Origin: Veillonella parvula
Lineage (GTDB): Bacteria > Bacillota > Negativicutes > Veillonellales > Veillonellaceae
Length of the DNA: 64,000 nt
NCBI RefSeq assembly: GCF_036456085.1
Contig: NZ_CP138632.1
Span: 682,001-746,000, forward strand
Direction: 5' to 3'
In this document: in pieces, positions 5,998-60,382 of the stretch
Layout: each line of letters begins with the position of its first letter
How positions within the stretch are numbered: position 1 is the first letter of the stretch
Position numbers and translations under genes: made by a program
Notes under the pieces: generated by a model
The model's input: the letters and a program-made list of their open reading frames with translations, nothing else
Told to the model about the DNA's origin: nothing
Database searches by the model: none

Positions 5998-8619
5998 TTA
6001 CTTTACTAATGCCCAGTTTTCTGCATGGTGTACGTCTACAATAAGAGGCACTTGTAACTCTACAACAGACTGCATTGTACTACGTAGTAACTCTTCTATA
6101 GCTTCTAATTCAGAGTTCACCACTTCAAGTACTAGTTCGTCATGCACTTGTAATAAGAGTCGAGACGTAAAGTTTTGTTCTTCTAACTTTTGCTCTACTT
6201 GGTTCATAGCTAACTTAATGATGTCTGCGGCGGTACCTTGAATTGGCGTATTCATTGCGGTCCGCTCAGCAAAGGAACGACGGTTAAAGTTACGACTATT
6301 AATATCAGGTAACTCGCGTTGACGACCAAACATAGTGCGAACTTTGCCAGTTTCATGAGCCTCTTGAACCATTCGATCCATATACTCTTTAACCTTAGGA
6401 TAACGGCTAAAATAAAGATCAATATAGTTTTTAGCTTCACCTCGTGTAATACCAAGGTCACGAGATAAACCAAAGTCAGAAATGCCGTAGATAATACCGA
6501 AGTTAATAGCCTTCGCATGGGAACGTTCTTCGCTAGTTACCTCATCTTGAGATTTACCAAGCACCTCTGCCGCCGTAAATCGGTGAATATCCTTACCTTC
6601 CACAAAGGCTTTAATCAACGCTTCGTCGCCAGACAAATGAGCTAAGATGCGCAACTCAATTTGAGAGTAATCGGCACTCACCAATGTATCATATCCAGTA
6701 CCTGGATAAAATAAAGCGCGAATTTCACGGCCTTTTTCGGTGCGAACCGGAATATTTTGCAAGTTCGGATCAGATGAGCTCAAACGACCTGTAGCTGTAA
6801 CCATTTGATTGAAAGTTGTATGAATACGATGTGTCTTATCATTGATAAGAACTGCCAATCCTTCACAATAGGTAGATACCAATTTAGCAACAGAACGGTA
6901 TGCCAAGATTTTTTCAACAATCGGACTTTCATGACGAAGCATATCCAATACTTCCGCATCTGTAGAATAGCCAGTCTTAGTTTTCTTGATGATTGGCAGA
7001 TTCAACTTTTCAAACAAGATTACACCCAATTGTTTAGGTGAATTAATATTGAAAGTTTCTCCGGCTAGTTCATAAATCTCTTCTTGTACTTGAGCTAGTT
7101 CCTCTTTAAAGCGAGCCGTTGTTTCCGCCAACTTCTCTGTATCGATATAGATACCATTTTTCTCCATCACAACTAAGGTATGAATCAAAGGTAACTCAAT
7201 TGTCTCATATAAAGACCATAACTCTTCACGGCGCGCAGACTCACAGGCAACTTCATTCATAGCGAGTAATGCTTTCACCATGGACACGCATTCTACGTCT
7301 ACACTACCGCTAGCAATGCTAGGTACAGAGAAACGCTCAGTTAGATATAGATATCCATAATTAGTACGTGTAGGATCTAATAAATACGCAATGAGCGACA
7401 TATCGTAAACGCGAGCAGTTTTATCAGCATTAAATAAAGAAATTTCAGCGGGCACATCTGCACCAAAGGCTTCGATAATCTCCTTGGTCTGAGTTGTAAC
7501 GATGGCTTTGGCACCTTGTAATACAGCTAAAACAGCTTTAGTATCGTCTGTTTTTACAATAGTATCTCCATTAGATAGATAAGCATTCGTTACCGTTCTA
7601 AATGGAGTTTTACCATCTAATATAACATGTACTGCTACCGTTTTATCTTTATAAAAATCAGCGGTTAATGATTTAGCATCCGCTAAATCATCTAAAGAAA
7701 TCTCTTCTTGTTGTGCAAATAAAGAACCTGGATCACCAAGAGCTACTTCCTCACACCCCATTACTTGTGCAATGCGAGGTGTTAATTTAGTAAAACCTAA
7801 AGTTTCAAATAACGGTTGTACTTCAGAGGCATGAAAGTTTTGTACAAAATCTTCTACTTTATAAGATAACTCCATGTCTGTTTTTATTGTAGCCAACTCA
7901 CGAGACAAGAAGGCTAACTCTTTATTCTCTACAAGGCGCTCTTTTAATTTCTTACCAGAAATATCTTCAATATGATCATATACAGATTCAAGATTGCCGT
8001 ATTCGGTAATTAATTTAAGCGCTGTTTTCTCACCTACGCCTGGTACACCTGGAATATTATCGGAAGAGTCACCCATAAGAGCCTTCATTTCGATAACCTT
8101 ATCAGGACCATAGCCATAAAGTTCTTCCATATTATCTAGAGTAACCTCTAACATATCAGAAATACCTTTTTTAGTTAAGAACACATGGCTATGTTCTGTT
8201 ACAAGCTGTAAATTATCGCGGTCTCCTGTAATAATTTGAACAGCCATATCAGGGGCTCCAAACTTCTTGCTTAAAGATCCGAGAATATCATCCCCTTCAA
8301 AACCTTCTTCTTCGATGACACAAATGCCTAATGCTTTTAATACATCTTGAATTAAACTAAACTGCGGACGTAAATCCTCAGGTGCATCTGGACGATTTCC
8401 TTTATACTCGCTATACATTTCTGTTCGGAATGTTTGACGCCCTTTATCAAAAGCTACGGCAATATAGTCAGGATTAATCTCTTCATACAATTTAATGAGC
8501 ATTGTTAAGAAACCATATACTGCATTCGTTGGCGTTCCCAGAGCGGATTTCAACGGTGGTAATGCAAAAAATGCACGAAATAACAAACTGCTGCCATCTA
8601 TAATCATTAATTTTTTCAT
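5998..8619 (-). CDS. polA: DNA polymerase I
   Basis: PolA processes Okazaki fragments and fills repair gaps. The 873 residues comprise a 5' nuclease domain (about 1-290, with MIIDGSSLLFRAF, GFEGDDILG and the helix-hairpin-helix DNIPGVPGVGEKTA), a middle 3'-5' exonuclease-like domain (about 300-480), and the polymerase domain with motif A DYSQIELR, motif B KAINFGIIYG and motif C QVHDELVLE. The exonuclease-like domain lacks the DxE and later acidic residues seen in E. coli, so proofreading is probably lost, as in Bacillus and Thermus enzymes. I chose the ATG at 8617-8619 because it has GAGGTG 5 bases upstream; an in-frame GTG lies 12 bases earlier. Confidence 0.97.
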   Translation of the reverse strand: MKKLMIIDGSSLLFRAFFALPPLKSALGTPTNAVYGFLTMLIKLYEEINPDYIAVAFDKGRQTFRTEMYSEYKGNRPDAPEDLRPQFSLIQDVLKALGICVIEEEGFEGDDILGSLSKKFGAPDMAVQIITGDRDNLQLVTEHSHVFLTKKGISDMLEVTLDNMEELYGYGPDKVIEMKALMGDSSDNIPGVPGVGEKTALKLITEYGNLESVYDHIEDISGKKLKERLVENKELAFLSRELATIKTDMELSYKVEDFVQNFHASEVQPLFETLGFTKLTPRIAQVMGCEEVALGDPGSLFAQQEEISLDDLADAKSLTADFYKDKTVAVHVILDGKTPFRTVTNAYLSNGDTIVKTDDTKAVLAVLQGAKAIVTTQTKEIIEAFGADVPAEISLFNADKTARVYDMSLIAYLLDPTRTNYGYLYLTERFSVPSIASGSVDVECVSMVKALLAMNEVACESARREELWSLYETIELPLIHTLVVMEKNGIYIDTEKLAETTARFKEELAQVQEEIYELAGETFNINSPKQLGVILFEKLNLPIIKKTKTGYSTDAEVLDMLRHESPIVEKILAYRSVAKLVSTYCEGLAVLINDKTHRIHTTFNQMVTATGRLSSSDPNLQNIPVRTEKGREIRALFYPGTGYDTLVSADYSQIELRILAHLSGDEALIKAFVEGKDIHRFTAAEVLGKSQDEVTSEERSHAKAINFGIIYGISDFGLSRDLGITRGEAKNYIDLYFSRYPKVKEYMDRMVQEAHETGKVRTMFGRQRELPDINSRNFNRRSFAERTAMNTPIQGTAADIIKLAMNQVEQKLEEQNFTSRLLLQVHDELVLEVVNSELEAIEELLRSTMQSVVELQVPLIVDVHHAENWALVK

Positions 8620-8817
8620 AAGACACCTCACTTAATTCTATTCTTCATTATAACATAAGGACCCTTTTAACTTTCATAAATAAAAATTAATATATTGTTA
8701 CACTAGAAAATGAGTAAGTAATTTGATTTTAAAAACCACATATATACTTTTGTTAATAAACAGTAGAAAATGTTTTACAAATCATGTCATTAAGGAAAAT
8801 ATTGGGCTGAAAAGTCC

Positions 8818-8846: not shown

Positions 8847-8886
8847 CATTCAGGTATAAGAAACGATTTTTAAGGAGGTGACTCAA

Positions 8887-9147
8887 TTGCCAAATATTAA
8901 ATCCAGTATTAGAAGCGTAAAAACGGATGCTGAACGTCGTGCGAAAAATGCCGCTGTAAAATCTCAAATTCGTACAGCAGCTCGTAAAACCGTTGAAGCT
9001 GTTCAAGCAGGCGCAGTAGAAGAAGCAAAACAAGCACTTGTTCATGCTACTAGCGTAATTGATAAAGCAGCCTCCAAAGGTGTACTTCATAAAAACACTG
9101 CAGCTCGCAAAAAATCTAACCTTGCAGCTAAAGTAAACGCTTTATAA
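8887..9147 (+). CDS. rpsT: 30S ribosomal protein S20, TTG start
   Basis: S20 binds 16S rRNA early in 30S assembly. The protein from the TTG at 8887-8889 is 86 residues and begins (M)PNIKSSIRSVK, the standard S20 N terminus, and ends AARKKSNLAAKVNAL. The very strong AAGGAGGTGA site (8872-8881) is 5-6 bases from the TTG. An in-frame GTG at 8878 forms part of that site and cannot be the start. Weak TTG starts are common for S20 genes and are linked to autoregulation in E. coli; that regulation here is inference. The gene stands alone between its own promoter and terminator. Confidence 0.96.
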   Translation: MPNIKSSIRSVKTDAERRAKNAAVKSQIRTAARKTVEAVQAGAVEEAKQALVHATSVIDKAASKGVLHKNTAARKKSNLAAKVNAL

Positions 9148-9164
9148 TTTTAAAAGCAAGCAAG

Positions 9165-9199
9165 ACAGTCTCTCGGTTATCCGTTGAGACTGTTTTTTT
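9165..9199 (+). terminator. Intrinsic terminator of rpsT
   Basis: The stem ACAGTCTC (9165-9172) pairs with GAGACTGT (9186-9193), with a 13-base loop, and is followed by TTTTTTA. It lies 17 bases after the rpsT stop. Confidence 0.9.
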
Positions 9200-9292
9200 A
9201 TGCCTTTTTTCTATTTAGTCATAAAAAAATTTTTCGTTTGTTATACAGTTATATTTTATTACGCCCTATGGGCAGATTAGAGGACTATTACT

Positions 9293-11497
9293 ATGAGAAC
9301 ACTATTATTAATGCGTGGTGCTCCTGCTAGTGGTAAGTCTCAGTGGATTCGTGACAACAATCTTGAGGCTTACACCCTTGAAGCCGATCATTTCCGTATG
9401 CTTTTACGTAGCCCTTCCCTTGGTGAGAACGGCTGGTATATTTCACAAGAGGATAATGGTCCAACATGGAAGCTCCTACTAGATTGTTTAGAAAAACGAA
9501 TGAGCAATGGCGACTTTGTTGTCTTAGATGCTACTCACACTACCTCTAAAGCTATTAATGCTTACAAAGAATTGCTTAACAAATATAAATATACTGTATA
9601 TTACTATGAACCTAATACATCCTTAGAGGATTGCTTGGCCCGTAATGCGGCACGCACCGATTACAAACGTGTGCCAGAGCAAGTTATTCATTATATGTAC
9701 AAAACGATTAAAACAAGCACATTACCAAACTTTTGCAAAAGAATTAACTCTATTGATGAAATTAACAATTACTTCACGGCTAATCTAACAAATAAATATA
9801 ATCGAGTACGTATTATCGGTGATATTCACGGTTGCTACACCGCATTACAACAAGCTATTACACCATGGGATGAAAAGACATTATACATCTTCTGCGGTGA
9901 CTATTTAGAACGCGGTATTGAAAACAAAGAAATGATGTACGAAATGATGCGTCTCAGCACATTACCTAATACAATTATGTTAGAAGGTAATCACGAGCGA
10001 CATATTGCAAACTTTGCATTCCATACAAATTTAGATCGTTCCAAACGCTTTATGAAAGATGTGGTAGCACCTATCGTAAAAGATATGACGAAAAAAGAAG
10101 TAGAATCACTCCAACGAGAACTACGACTCTTTTATAAATCACTTCGTCAATGTTATCCATTCAGCTTCCATGGCAAAAAATATTTAGTTTCCCATGGTGG
10201 CCTCTCCTATGTGCCTAATATGACCTTCATAGCCACCTCAACATTTATTAATGGTTTTGGAGCTTACGAAACAAATATCGCTAATATTTACGATACTAAT
10301 TACGAACAAGGCATGTGTCAGGACTTCATTCAAATTCACGGTCATCGTGGCGTTCCAGATGGAAAGTACTCCTTCTGTTTAGAAGGAGAAGTTGAGTTTG
10401 GTGGAGAGCTAAAATACATCGATATTACAGCAAATACTTTCATAAAAAATGGAATAAAAAACGATGTATATGATAAAGATTATATGCGCCATGAATTCCA
10501 AAATATGACACAACACATCATCTTCACACAGAACGAAGATATTAATATTATTGGCAATTCAAAATTAGTAAAAGTAAAACAGTGTTCCCCCAACCTATAT
10601 TCCTTGAACTTTACCTCTCGTGTATTTCATAAACGATTATGGAATGAAAGTACAATACAAGCTCGTGGATTATTTGTGGATCGAATTACAGGAGATGTGA
10701 AATTACGTAGTTATAATAAATTCTTTAATCTTGGTGAACGCCCAGAAACAGAGTTAGATAATTTAGCTAATACCCTCTCTTTCCCAGTCGAAATTCGAAC
10801 TAAAGAAAATGGTTACCTTGCCATTCTTGGCGTTATCAACGAAGAATTCGTATTTGCCTCTAAATCTACAACAGAGAGCATACATGTGGATTTATTTAAA
10901 AACCTATTCCATAGATTGCCTGAAGGCTTACAAACAGAAATCAAAGATTTATTAGCACGTAATAATTGTTCTATAATATTTGAAGTCATTAGCCAAGAGG
11001 ATACTCATATCATTAAATACGACCAAGACCATCTCTATGTACTCGATTTAATTCAAAATACGCTAGACGTAAATGGTAAGCATATAGATGTCCCATTCTC
11101 TAGAGAAAAATTAACTGAACTTTATACAATTTTACAAAAATATGACACTGACTTGATTTCCATTGTTAAAACAGTTCAACAAGTTTCTACCATGGAGGAG
11201 CTCCAAGGCATTATAAATGAGGAGCTAAATTCATTCCATAAATCTGAAGGCTTTGTATTAGTCGATAGCAATGGTTTTATGACTAAATTCAAAGGTCCTT
11301 ATTATAATACGTGGAAGCACAGACGAAATCGCATTCTAGAGCCATATCAAAAATTTGGTAAAATTCCATATGGAAACTGTAAAAATGAAGATGACACTAA
11401 ATTTGCAGACTTCCTTGGTTCATTAGATTATGATGTGGTATGTAAGTCTACCATACTTGATATTAAAGATATGATGGAAAATCAAGGCTTGCTATAA
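9293..11497 (+). CDS. RNA repair enzyme: polynucleotide kinase, PPP-type phosphatase and RNA ligase in one chain
   Basis: The 734-residue protein joins three RNA end-processing modules. Residues 1-165 are a P-loop kinase (GAPASGKS at 9-16, VVLDATHTT, and an Arg-rich lid ARNAARTDYKR) resembling 5'-OH polynucleotide kinases. Residues about 170-390 are a metallophosphatase (GDIHGCY, GDYLERG, GNHERH, HGGLSY, IHGHR), the module that removes 2',3'-cyclic phosphate or 3' phosphate in Pnkp. Residues about 430-700 resemble T4 Rnl1-type ligase: QARGLFVD, YNKFFNLGE, nucleotidyl motif I KENG with Lys504, FEVI, EGFVLVD and FKGPYY. Kinase-phosphatase order matches bacterial Pnkp. No Hen1 methyltransferase gene is adjacent. 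It stands alone after rpsT, with AGAGGA 7-8 bases before the ATG. Substrate (tRNA?) is inference. Confidence 0.85.
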   Translation: MRTLLLMRGAPASGKSQWIRDNNLEAYTLEADHFRMLLRSPSLGENGWYISQEDNGPTWKLLLDCLEKRMSNGDFVVLDATHTTSKAINAYKELLNKYKYTVYYYEPNTSLEDCLARNAARTDYKRVPEQVIHYMYKTIKTSTLPNFCKRINSIDEINNYFTANLTNKYNRVRIIGDIHGCYTALQQAITPWDEKTLYIFCGDYLERGIENKEMMYEMMRLSTLPNTIMLEGNHERHIANFAFHTNLDRSKRFMKDVVAPIVKDMTKKEVESLQRELRLFYKSLRQCYPFSFHGKKYLVSHGGLSYVPNMTFIATSTFINGFGAYETNIANIYDTNYEQGMCQDFIQIHGHRGVPDGKYSFCLEGEVEFGGELKYIDITANTFIKNGIKNDVYDKDYMRHEFQNMTQHIIFTQNEDINIIGNSKLVKVKQCSPNLYSLNFTSRVFHKRLWNESTIQARGLFVDRITGDVKLRSYNKFFNLGERPETELDNLANTLSFPVEIRTKENGYLAILGVINEEFVFASKSTTESIHVDLFKNLFHRLPEGLQTEIKDLLARNNCSIIFEVISQEDTHIIKYDQDHLYVLDLIQNTLDVNGKHIDVPFSREKLTELYTILQKYDTDLISIVKTVQQVSTMEELQGIINEELNSFHKSEGFVLVDSNGFMTKFKGPYYNTWKHRRNRILEPYQKFGKIPYGNCKNEDDTKFADFLGSLDYDVVCKSTILDIKDMMENQGLL

Positions 11498-11531: not shown

Positions 11532-11588
11532 AAAAGGGACTGCAACTAGAATGTAGTAAAACCACATTCTGTTACAGCCCCTTTTTAT
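11532..11588. terminator. Bidirectional intrinsic terminator between the RNA repair gene and ade
   Basis: A long imperfect stem pairs AAAAGGG..CTG..AGAATGT on the left with ACATTCT..CAG..CCCCTTTT on the right. It has a T-run on the plus side and the complementary A-run giving T's on the minus side. It separates two convergent genes. Confidence 0.85.
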
Positions 11589-11612: not shown

Positions 11613-13286
11613 CTAGAACTCCATCACACCTGTAGTAGTAATTCTAATTTCTGGAATTACAGTTAATGCAAGGAAACTCAAATTAATAAAAGGATCTAGG
11701 CCTTTCGGCACGCCCATACCGTAAGCAATATCTTTCATCTTAGCCACTTTTGCATCTACTTCTTCGTGAGGTCGATTTGTGATTAAGCCCATTACTTCAA
11801 GAGCTAGTTCCTCTACTACTTTGCCTTCACTAGCAATGACATATCCGCCGCCAATTTCGCGAATACGCTCAATAGCAACCATCATATCTGCATCGTTGTC
11901 GCCAACAACAATCAGATTATGTGAATCATGTGCAAAGGATGACGCAATAGCACCATTTTTTAAATTGAAGCCTTTCAAAATACCGACACCATTTCTACCA
12001 GATGCTTTATACCGCTCGATACAAGTAATTTTATTGTACTCAGCATTAGGCTTGAACAGTCCATTTTCAACAGGAACCTCTTCAACAGTTTTTTGTGTAA
12101 CTATTTGCCCAGGTACGATATTAATAATCGCTTGTGGACCTTCAATAGAAACATCTAATTTTTCCTTTGTGAAAGTACCTATATTAATCGTATGGAGTAA
12201 TTCAGATGGTACAACCTTCTCTTCTCTCATAAGAACGCGTTCAATCGGCTTTCCTTTATAAAACACTTCGTGAATATCTACGCGTTGCTCATCATTGAGG
12301 ATTACAAGATTAGCACTATAGCCGGGAGCAATAGCACCTAAATCTTTTAATCCGTAACATGCTGCCGGATGAGTGGAGGCCATTTTATAAGCTTGGATTG
12401 GTGTCAGTCCCAATTCAATCGAACGACGAATATTATAGCTAATATGGCCTTCTGAACGAATATCCTCAATATGCTTATCATCTGTACAGAAACCATAACG
12501 CTCCGTATTTCCTTGCTCTTCTACAAGCCCTTTCACAATGGAGTCTAGATTATGAGCCGCACTGCCCTCACGAATCCATACATAAATCCCATTTTTAACT
12601 TGCTCTTTTGCTTCTTCGTAGGAAATACATTCGTGATTTGTAGTAATGCCTGCCAAACGATAGCTTGCTATTTGCTCTGGTGAAAGTCCAATAATATGTC
12701 CATCCATAATTGTATCTTTAAAGTAATCTAACTTTTTCATCATGTAAGGATCACTATTGATAACACTATAACAGTCCATGACTTCACCTAATCCTAAGAT
12801 ACGTAGATTAGCTTGTAGCTTATGTAACATATCGCCATCTAAAATAGCGCCATTATCTTCACCTGGTACAGCAGGCACACAGGATGGAGCCATAACATAT
12901 ACATCACCTTGAGCCGACGCAGTTTCATTGATCATGTACTCAACACCGGCAATACCCGCTACATTACCGGCTTCATGAGGGTCTACAATAAATCCTAACG
13001 TTCCCACTTGAGAGGCCTCAAATACGAGTTCTTTCGGATTCACCAAGGTGGATTCCAGATGGAGATGGCTGTCTATAAATCCGGGCACAATATATTTACC
13101 GCTGTAATCATATTCTGTTTCACCTGTATATGTTCCTACACCTATAATCGTGTCATCATGAATCGCAATATCCGCTTTTACCCATTCATCGGTGAATACA
13201 TTTAAAACAGATGCCCCCTTCAATACGACAGGAGCCTTATCCAACCCCTGTGCTTGTCGAGAAATTTTTGCATTAAATTGTATCAT
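11613..13286 (-). CDS. ade: Adenine deaminase
   Basis: Converts adenine to hypoxanthine and ammonia in purine salvage. The 557-residue length and the amidohydrolase landmarks fit the Ade family. These are the metal-binding PGFIDSHLHLESTLV, the DPHEAGNVAG region, TTNHECISYEEA, the CTDDKH segment and a C-terminal domain with FAHDSHNLIVVG and GGGYV. The ATG at 13284-13286 has AGGAGG 8 bases upstream. It follows the NCS2 purine permease gene by 13 bases on the same strand, so import and deamination of adenine are likely co-expressed. No purine riboswitch was found ahead of the pair. Confidence 0.96.
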   Translation of the reverse strand: MIQFNAKISRQAQGLDKAPVVLKGASVLNVFTDEWVKADIAIHDDTIIGVGTYTGETEYDYSGKYIVPGFIDSHLHLESTLVNPKELVFEASQVGTLGFIVDPHEAGNVAGIAGVEYMINETASAQGDVYVMAPSCVPAVPGEDNGAILDGDMLHKLQANLRILGLGEVMDCYSVINSDPYMMKKLDYFKDTIMDGHIIGLSPEQIASYRLAGITTNHECISYEEAKEQVKNGIYVWIREGSAAHNLDSIVKGLVEEQGNTERYGFCTDDKHIEDIRSEGHISYNIRRSIELGLTPIQAYKMASTHPAACYGLKDLGAIAPGYSANLVILNDEQRVDIHEVFYKGKPIERVLMREEKVVPSELLHTINIGTFTKEKLDVSIEGPQAIINIVPGQIVTQKTVEEVPVENGLFKPNAEYNKITCIERYKASGRNGVGILKGFNLKNGAIASSFAHDSHNLIVVGDNDADMMVAIERIREIGGGYVIASEGKVVEELALEVMGLITNRPHEEVDAKVAKMKDIAYGMGVPKGLDPFINLSFLALTVIPEIRITTTGVMEF

Positions 13287-59312: not shown

Positions 59313-60382
59313 TGATGAATTGTAAAATATATTGCGACAAATAAAAAGACTCATATTGGAGATCTCGTGTAAAATGTAAATAACCACAACTACATGACAC
59401 GGAGGTCTCTAATATGAGCTATATACATCTTACCATAGAAAAACGAAGTCAAATAGAAGTTTTACGAAGAGAAGGATACTCTGTTCGTAGGATTGCTAGC
59501 TTAATCGGGGTTCACCATTCTACTGTAGCAAGAGAATTAAATCGCGTTGAAGGTGAATATTCTGCGATTAAAGCACAACAATTAGCAATTAGTGAGTCTG
59601 CTAATAAAGGCAGACCAACAAAGTTAACACCTCAATTAGCGGCTTTAATTGAATCCAGGTTACAACAAACTTGGTCTCCAGAAGAAATAGTTGGTGCTGA
59701 ATTAGTTGGAGTTCTAAGCTTTAAAACAATTTATTCTTGGATCCATCGTGGTTTTCTTGCTGTAACAGAAACAGTACTTCGCCGGAAAGGCAAAAAGCCT
59801 GGTACACAAGAAAAACGTGGACGGTTCAATGTGAAAAAGACCATTAAGGACCGACCTCAAGAAGTTGAAAACCGTAAGACTTTTGGTCATTGGGAACTAG
59901 ATACAATGGTGTCTTCTAGAGGTCAAAGTAAAGGTTGTTTAGCTACATTTGTTGAACGTAAAACTCGATTTTATGTAGCAATAAAAATGGATGACCGAAC
60001 TAAGGATTCTATGTTTTTAGCTATTAGTTCCCTATACAACACATTAACAAGTAAATTACTTAAAACCTTTACAGTGGACCGTGGTAAAGAATTTGCGTGC
60101 TTTGAACAGGTTGAAAACGAGTTTGGGATACCAATGTATTTTGCTGATGCCTATGCAGCATGGCAACGTGGCTCTAATGAAAATAGTAATGGTTTACTTC
60201 GAGAGCTTTTTCCTAAGAAAACCGATTTAGCTAAAGTAACACTAGATAAACTAACAGAAGCACTAGTGCTGATTAATAATCGACCTAGAAAATGCCTTAG
60301 GTTTAAAACACCATTTGACATGTTTAAACATGAGATTAAAAAATTGATTTAATTTTGTCGCATTACTTATTGCAATTCATCA
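59313..60382 (+). mobile_element. IS30-family insertion sequence, complete
   Basis: A 1070-bp element bounded by 29-bp imperfect inverted repeats at 59313-59341 and 60354-60382, identical at 24 of 29 positions (both begin TGATGAATTG from the outside and end TGCGACAAA inside). The right repeat starts 2 bases after the transposase stop. No clear target duplication is visible; IS30 elements make only 2-3 bp. It inserted next to the START-fold gene without interrupting a recognisable gene. Confidence 0.88.
59414..60352 (+). CDS. IS30-family transposase
   Basis: A 312-residue full-length DDE transposase. The N terminus has a helix-turn-helix (SVRRIASLIGVHHSTVARELNR). The DDE residues are in FGHWELDTM (Asp), TVDRGKEF (Asp) and GSNENSNGLLRELFP (Glu), all in the IS30 pattern. 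GGAGG lies 5-6 bases before the ATG. The frame is intact, so the element may be active. It is distantly related to the broken IS30 transposase at 63340-64000 but clearly not the same element. Confidence 0.95.
   Translation: MSYIHLTIEKRSQIEVLRREGYSVRRIASLIGVHHSTVARELNRVEGEYSAIKAQQLAISESANKGRPTKLTPQLAALIESRLQQTWSPEEIVGAELVGVLSFKTIYSWIHRGFLAVTETVLRRKGKKPGTQEKRGRFNVKKTIKDRPQEVENRKTFGHWELDTMVSSRGQSKGCLATFVERKTRFYVAIKMDDRTKDSMFLAISSLYNTLTSKLLKTFTVDRGKEFACFEQVENEFGIPMYFADAYAAWQRGSNENSNGLLRELFPKKTDLAKVTLDKLTEALVLINNRPRKCLRFKTPFDMFKHEIKKLI

Follow-up and report, generated by a model that had tools for sequence, protein, structure and literature searches.

Can one polypeptide both heal and seal cleaved RNA, with no Hen1 partner? 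This is the question raised by a gene of Veillonella parvula at 9293..11497 (+ strand) of the window, by which we mean the whole 64,000-nucleotide stretch of chromosome analysed here. A sequence-only reading had described its product as a 734-residue single protein in which a kinase, a PPP-type phosphatase and a ligase are fused, and this is borne out by an intact ORF with an ATG start, by Pfam and by residue conservation, with PHROG and an AlphaFold2 model in agreement. We think it probable that the protein is an RNA repair enzyme of phage origin which carries out both healing and sealing by itself, and whose gene has become chromosomal in some Veillonella species; its most likely task is to mend cleaved RNA, probably tRNA, with no partner. 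We infer three activities (5′-OH kinase, 3′-end phosphatase and RNA ligase), as well as the autonomy and the tRNA substrate.

Three domains with conserved catalytic residues

The N-terminal polynucleotide kinase domain (residues 1-150; 9293..9742, + strand) matches Pfam AAA_33 over residues 4-136 (E 5.5e-19) and the kinase fold of Clostridium thermocellum Pnkp (CthPnkp; Foldseek TM 0.71-0.73), and carries a P-loop at G9-S16 together with D32, R35 and R121. It is followed by a binuclear metallophosphoesterase domain (residues 168-392; 9794..10468, + strand), which matches Pfam Metallophos over residues 171-357 (E 5.8e-11), and whose fold and metal ligands are those of lambda/CthPnkp-type metallophosphatases (Foldseek TM 0.69 to lambda phosphatase and 0.59-0.62 to the CthPnkp phosphatase). 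The ligase consists of an adenylyltransferase part (residues 430-668; 10580..11296, + strand), with an RNA_lig_T4_1 (PF09511) match over residues 456-671 (E 2.1e-31), and a helical C-terminal subdomain (residues 669-730; 11297..11482, + strand). All three Pfam matches lie over the gathering cut-off; Pfam found no 2H domain in the protein.

The motifs listed by the sequence-only reading (GAPASGKS; GDIHGCY and GNHERH; KENG, FEVI, EGFVL and FKGPYY) were all found, and, over an alignment of 106 homologs, catalytic residues are kept in 98-106, an argument for functional active sites in all three domains throughout the family. Kinase residues are kept in 104-106 homologs (K15 and R35 in 106, D32 in 105; S16 is S or T). 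Among the phosphatase metal ligands, D177, D203, N233, H234 and H351 are present in all 106, H301 in 105 and H179 in 98. The ligase site includes F478 and the nucleotidyl lysine K504 of motif I (KENG; codon at 10802..10804, + strand); K504 and G507 are invariant, R458, K476, E564, E652, K665 and K667 are kept in 105 homologs, and K524 in 104. The AlphaFold2 model of the 734-residue protein has a mean pLDDT of 93.0 and a pTM of 0.62, so that how the three domains sit with respect to one another is uncertain; a model of the ligase part made without an alignment (pLDDT 33.5) was discarded.

The ligase is nearest to that of fungal Trl1

The ligase had been called Rnl1-like, with the proposal that the C-terminal part be compared with the Rnl1, Trl1 and Pnkp ligases; in this comparison Trl1 is nearest and the Pnkp ligase domain is absent. 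In a search with a query profile built from 46 homologs, fungal tRNA ligases rank first, with E values of 1e-37 for 9qw7 (Candida glabrata) and ~1e-28 for 6n0v/6n67. The Trl1 matches as a whole (1e-37 to 3e-27) span profile positions 431-728, the alignment reaching 726-728, whereas the T4 Rnl1 match (3e-14) is aligned just to position 677. The fold comparison (AlphaFold2/Foldseek) agrees: the Trl1 ligase domain gives a target TM of 0.61-0.67 for most entries, mostly at 4.0-4.6 Å, against 0.50-0.55 at 10-12 Å for T4 Rnl1. In Pfam searches the T4_Rnl1_C domain (PF20819) is absent from the repair protein, though T4 Rnl1 itself scores 1.8e-39, and PNKP_ligase (PF16542) is absent at E 1, Rhodococcus Pnkp scoring 1.2e-161 as a positive control. 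The label ‘Rnl1-like’ thus holds for the superfamily only.

Profile comparison, AlphaFold2/Foldseek and conserved residues all put the ligase closest to fungal Trl1, a likeness that takes in the helical C-terminal subdomain and a phosphate pocket. The subdomain, modelled as helices at 669-688, 699-710, 713-718 and 721-730, aligns by profile with Trl1 LIG-C, which a 2019 paper described as showing no relationship to the superfamily's other PDB structures (PMC6592678). Near the active site of Chaetomium thermophilum Trl1, a sulfate is bound by Asn150, His227, Arg334 and Arg337; alanine scanning showed His227 and Arg337 to be essential, and the authors surmised that the sulfate mimics an RNA phosphate (PMC6592678). 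In the profile alignment the counterparts of these residues are N506 (104 of the 106 homologs), H572 (105; codon at 11006..11008, + strand), which corresponds to His227, and K675 (103) and R678 (105), which correspond to Arg334 and Arg337 (codons within 11315..11326, + strand). The aligned segment of T4 Rnl1 is without the histidine and the arginines of this pocket.

A further and rather doubtful step would be to see the whole phage family as a Pnkp-type healing module joined to a Trl1-type ligase with the Trl1 phosphate pocket, and hence as prokaryotic kin of the domain with which fungal tRNA ligases seal. If this were true, some bacterial repair would be dependent on, or tolerant of, a 2′-phosphate, and the LIG-C fold would gain a phage counterpart.

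Predicted repair pathway and the chemistry of the 3′ end

We propose that the substrate is RNA cut so as to leave a 2′,3′-cyclic phosphate (or 3′-phosphate) and a 5′-OH. The N-terminal kinase would add phosphate to the 5′ end; the middle metallophosphatase would open the cyclic phosphate and strip the 3′ phosphate; and the C-terminal Trl1/Rnl1-type ligase would form lysyl-AMP on K504, pass the AMP onto the 5′ phosphate and join the ends, with no need of Hen1. The substrate is likely to be tRNA, whose anticodon loop may be nicked by neighbours' ribotoxins, by toxin-antitoxin RNases or by phage-defence nucleases. Phage enzymes of this type are thought to reverse host tRNA cleavage (PMC7824862). 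By analogy with that use, the role in the bacterium could be that of a shield against the ribotoxins of neighbours or against its own RNase toxins.

The alternative that survives best, unlikely as we judge it to be, is a Trl1-like pathway, in which the ligase needs a 2′-PO4, 3′-OH end and the metallophosphatase acts mainly as a 2′,3′-cyclic phosphodiesterase that leaves a 2′-PO4. Fungal Trl1 requires just such an end, and KptA/Tpt1 clears the 2′-phosphate from the joint. Retention of the four sulfate-holding residues of Trl1 in 103-105 homologs, and their partial lack in T4 Rnl1, argue for this pathway, as does the H189D mutant of CthPnkp, by which 2′,3′-cyclic phosphates are reportedly opened to 2′-NMP only. 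However, at the equivalent position in the family, H179, 98 of 106 homologs have the His of wild-type CthPnkp and not Asp; that the Trl1 sulfate mimics an RNA phosphate is itself a surmise; and KptA/Tpt1 is absent from all 15 Veillonella species genomes searched and was found in only one of 29 phage and plasmid records with a family member. Because of this scarcity of KptA/Tpt1 we clearly favour the sealing of ordinary 2′-OH/3′-OH ends as the predicted activity. The one record with both genes is a 394-kb viral contig (G171), which encodes the repair enzyme (L205) and a KptA/Tpt1 2′-phosphotransferase (L231).

Membership of a mostly phage-borne family

Almost the entire chain matches PHROG 8238 ‘RNA ligase’ (phrog_8238; E 2.3e-175, residues 1-730 on positions 1-731 of 737). 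This family had gone unrecognised in the sequence-only reading, whose fused modules and predicted independence of Hen1 stand, but whose ligase type was imprecise. Matching phage records number 280, with coverage of at least 80% in 112 of them, and the best are Fusobacterium phages (44-45%); eight plasmid records also reach at least 80% coverage, one of which is catalogued as a 2.1-Mb plasmid of Fusobacterium vincentii. Viral and bacterial collections yielded more than 100 further loci, a lower bound since the search patterns sat in the phosphatase domain; in a scan of viral contigs a single-protein query returned 0 loci and an alignment query at least 80. The gene is therefore a member of a widespread, mostly phage-borne family, and is not unique to Veillonella. 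Among the matches listed, the closest that bears a name is the protein of Veillonella parvula SKV38, at 95% identity.

Members of PHROG 8238 from Fusobacterium phages Fnu1 and phiKSUM, staphylococcal Twort-type phages, SPbeta-like phages and Lactobacillus phage Bromius have the identical three-domain layout and share the catalytic residues, at 27-46% identity; they sit in phage or plasmid genomes, whereas the Veillonella gene is lone, conserved and chromosomal. In a tree of 89 proteins the Veillonella sequences nest with those of Fusobacterium phages, the F. vincentii record, one viral contig and Leptotrichia (SH-aLRT 100), and this grouping makes capture from a phage the likeliest origin. The family gene also stands alone amid housekeeping genes in Leptotrichia.

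Two proteobacterial contigs (L077 and L092) have ORFs that encode the phosphatase and ligase only, from residue 167, while tblastn similarity runs from residue 1; a frameshift, a split gene or an assembly error could account for such a shortened ORF. In a viral structure library, most of the AlphaFold2 model can be aligned with proteins of Hokovirus (A0A1V0SF21) and Terrestrivirus (A0A3G4ZLK8), both annotated as phosphoesterases, a hint that giant viruses have a multi-domain repair architecture of a related kind.

A resident gene of Veillonella chromosomes

The genome is a single 2.21-Mb contig, 100% complete, and in it the repair gene lies between rpsT (ribosomal protein S20; 8878..9147, + strand) and the adenine deaminase gene (11613..13286, - strand), which comparison across the genus identifies as the left and right boundaries of the insertion site. 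It is monocistronic, with its own ribosome-binding site (GAGGA at 9280..9284, + strand, within AGAGGA at 9279-9284) and terminators on both sides: the Rho-independent terminator of rpsT at 9162..9196 (+ strand; fold -21 kcal/mol, z -6.2, with a T run), and a terminator-like hairpin 3′ of the gene at 11532..11585 (+ strand; fold -21.3 kcal/mol, z -5.2), in the gap where this gene and that for adenine deaminase converge. Its neighbours are housekeeping genes (polA, coaE, rpsT, adenine deaminase, permease and deoB), no phage genes adjoin it among the window ORFs, and PADLOC gave no match for the protein; a prophage or defence island at this locus was accordingly rejected.

Seven of the 15 Veillonella species genomes carry the gene, every copy directly after rpsT, and all seven copies are intact, with proteins 72-95% identical to that of the window. 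In three non-carriers (G005, G006 and G009) rpsT adjoins the adenine deaminase gene (adeC), with the repair gene missing from between them. On a polA tree the carrier state needs three changes, of which at least two are forced by well-supported branches, and sister species differ (G010 carries the gene and G009 does not); this requirement for multiple changes indicates that loss or exchange at the rpsT site has occurred.

Could the gene then be a counter-defence gene captured from a phage, of no use to the bacterium and in the course of decay? The mostly phage-borne family and the presence in just seven of 15 species would fit with this, but we find it improbable: intactness in all carriers, dN/dS of 0.07-0.14 against the window copy (full-length, for pairs with unsaturated dS), the fixed site, the gene's own ribosome-binding site and terminators, and the lack of adjoining phage genes all stand against it. 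By the dN/dS measure, the protein is under purifying selection in the bacterium.

Hen1 and other possible partners

The earlier remark that no hen1 gene is adjacent is true, and extends to the whole complete genome, in which a search for Hen1 (TIGR04074) gave 0 matches; among the 29 phage and plasmid records bearing homologs none was over the family cut-off, with one sub-threshold match. That the protein is nonetheless a Hen1-dependent Pnkp, with Hen1 encoded elsewhere, is very improbable and largely refuted: its kinase-phosphatase half does match bacterial Pnkp (TIGR04075; residues 3-305 only, E 1.9e-14), with the same domain order, but scores 52.8 bits where the cut-off is 750, and the protein has neither a PNKP_ligase domain nor a Hen1 to depend on. 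The bacterial Pnkp-Hen1 system, as in C. thermocellum, has the order of kinase and metallophosphatase in common with the Veillonella protein and differs in its C-terminal PNKP_ligase domain, which requires Hen1. The ligase is not of the Hen1-dependent Pnkp type, and the earlier claim of independence from Hen1 is right as a prediction.

RtcB, like KptA/Tpt1, is absent from the 15 Veillonella species genomes, so that the repair enzyme would be the sole RNA-sealing system among the types searched. No RNA-cleaving partner gene was found adjoining the repair gene. A search of the AAA_13 family for PrrC/RloC-type ATPases gave weak partial matches only, and no full-length protein, in the carriers; a nuclease of this type was rejected as a partner, the single full-length match in the genus being in the non-carrier G009 (G009:C6:568200-570215, L225), where PADLOC assigns it to the candidate defence family PDC-S06 (E 1e-205) and to neither PrrC nor RloC, a single case with no evidence for a link. 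Our literature search, which did not extend to most subscription journals, turned up no experimental work on any member of the family.

Comparison with known repair systems

Heal-and-seal RNA repair is a known kind of process; this variant of it unites Pnkp-type healing and Trl1-type sealing halves in one chain. Fungal Trl1 (C. glabrata, C. thermophilum) has the closest ligase domain, with LIG-C and the phosphate pocket in common, but its order is ligase-kinase-2H cyclic phosphodiesterase, in contrast to kinase-phosphatase-ligase in Veillonella, where the phosphatase is of calcineurin type and there is no 2H domain. The Veillonella protein could offer a simple way to test how fungal tRNA ligase came by the 2′-phosphate requirement of its sealing domain, being a relative with the same pocket and a different 3′-end healing domain.

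The chemistry predicted for the Veillonella protein is that of T4 Pnkp plus Rnl1, and both ligases have the RNA_lig_T4_1 nucleotidyltransferase domain; in T4, however, these are two separate proteins and T4_Rnl1_C is present, whereas in Veillonella there is a single chain without it. The T4 Pnkp phosphatase is of the aspartate-based DxDxT type (PMC3400036). The Capnocytophaga Pnkp1-Rnl-Hen1 system is likewise a bacterial RNA repair system with the kinase, phosphatase and ligase activities that we predict for the Veillonella protein, but it consists of three separate proteins in a heterohexamer, all of which are required (PMC4411300). If active, the Veillonella enzyme would be a one-protein, partner-free RNA repair kit, directly assayable and usable as a reagent. 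It would also represent the passage of phage RNA repair, a counter-defence tool, into a stable bacterial gene, within a genus without RtcB or KptA and in a genome without Hen1.

Two minor observations concern the window. Of its 34 ORFs of at least 250 residues (window 1-64000), the repair gene and the ORF at 59414-60352 alone lie on the + strand, the rest being on the - strand. The polA ORF (window 5998-8631) has a listed start at a GTG a few codons ahead of MKKLMII, and its likelier start is the ATG of MKKLMII, which matches that of its relatives.
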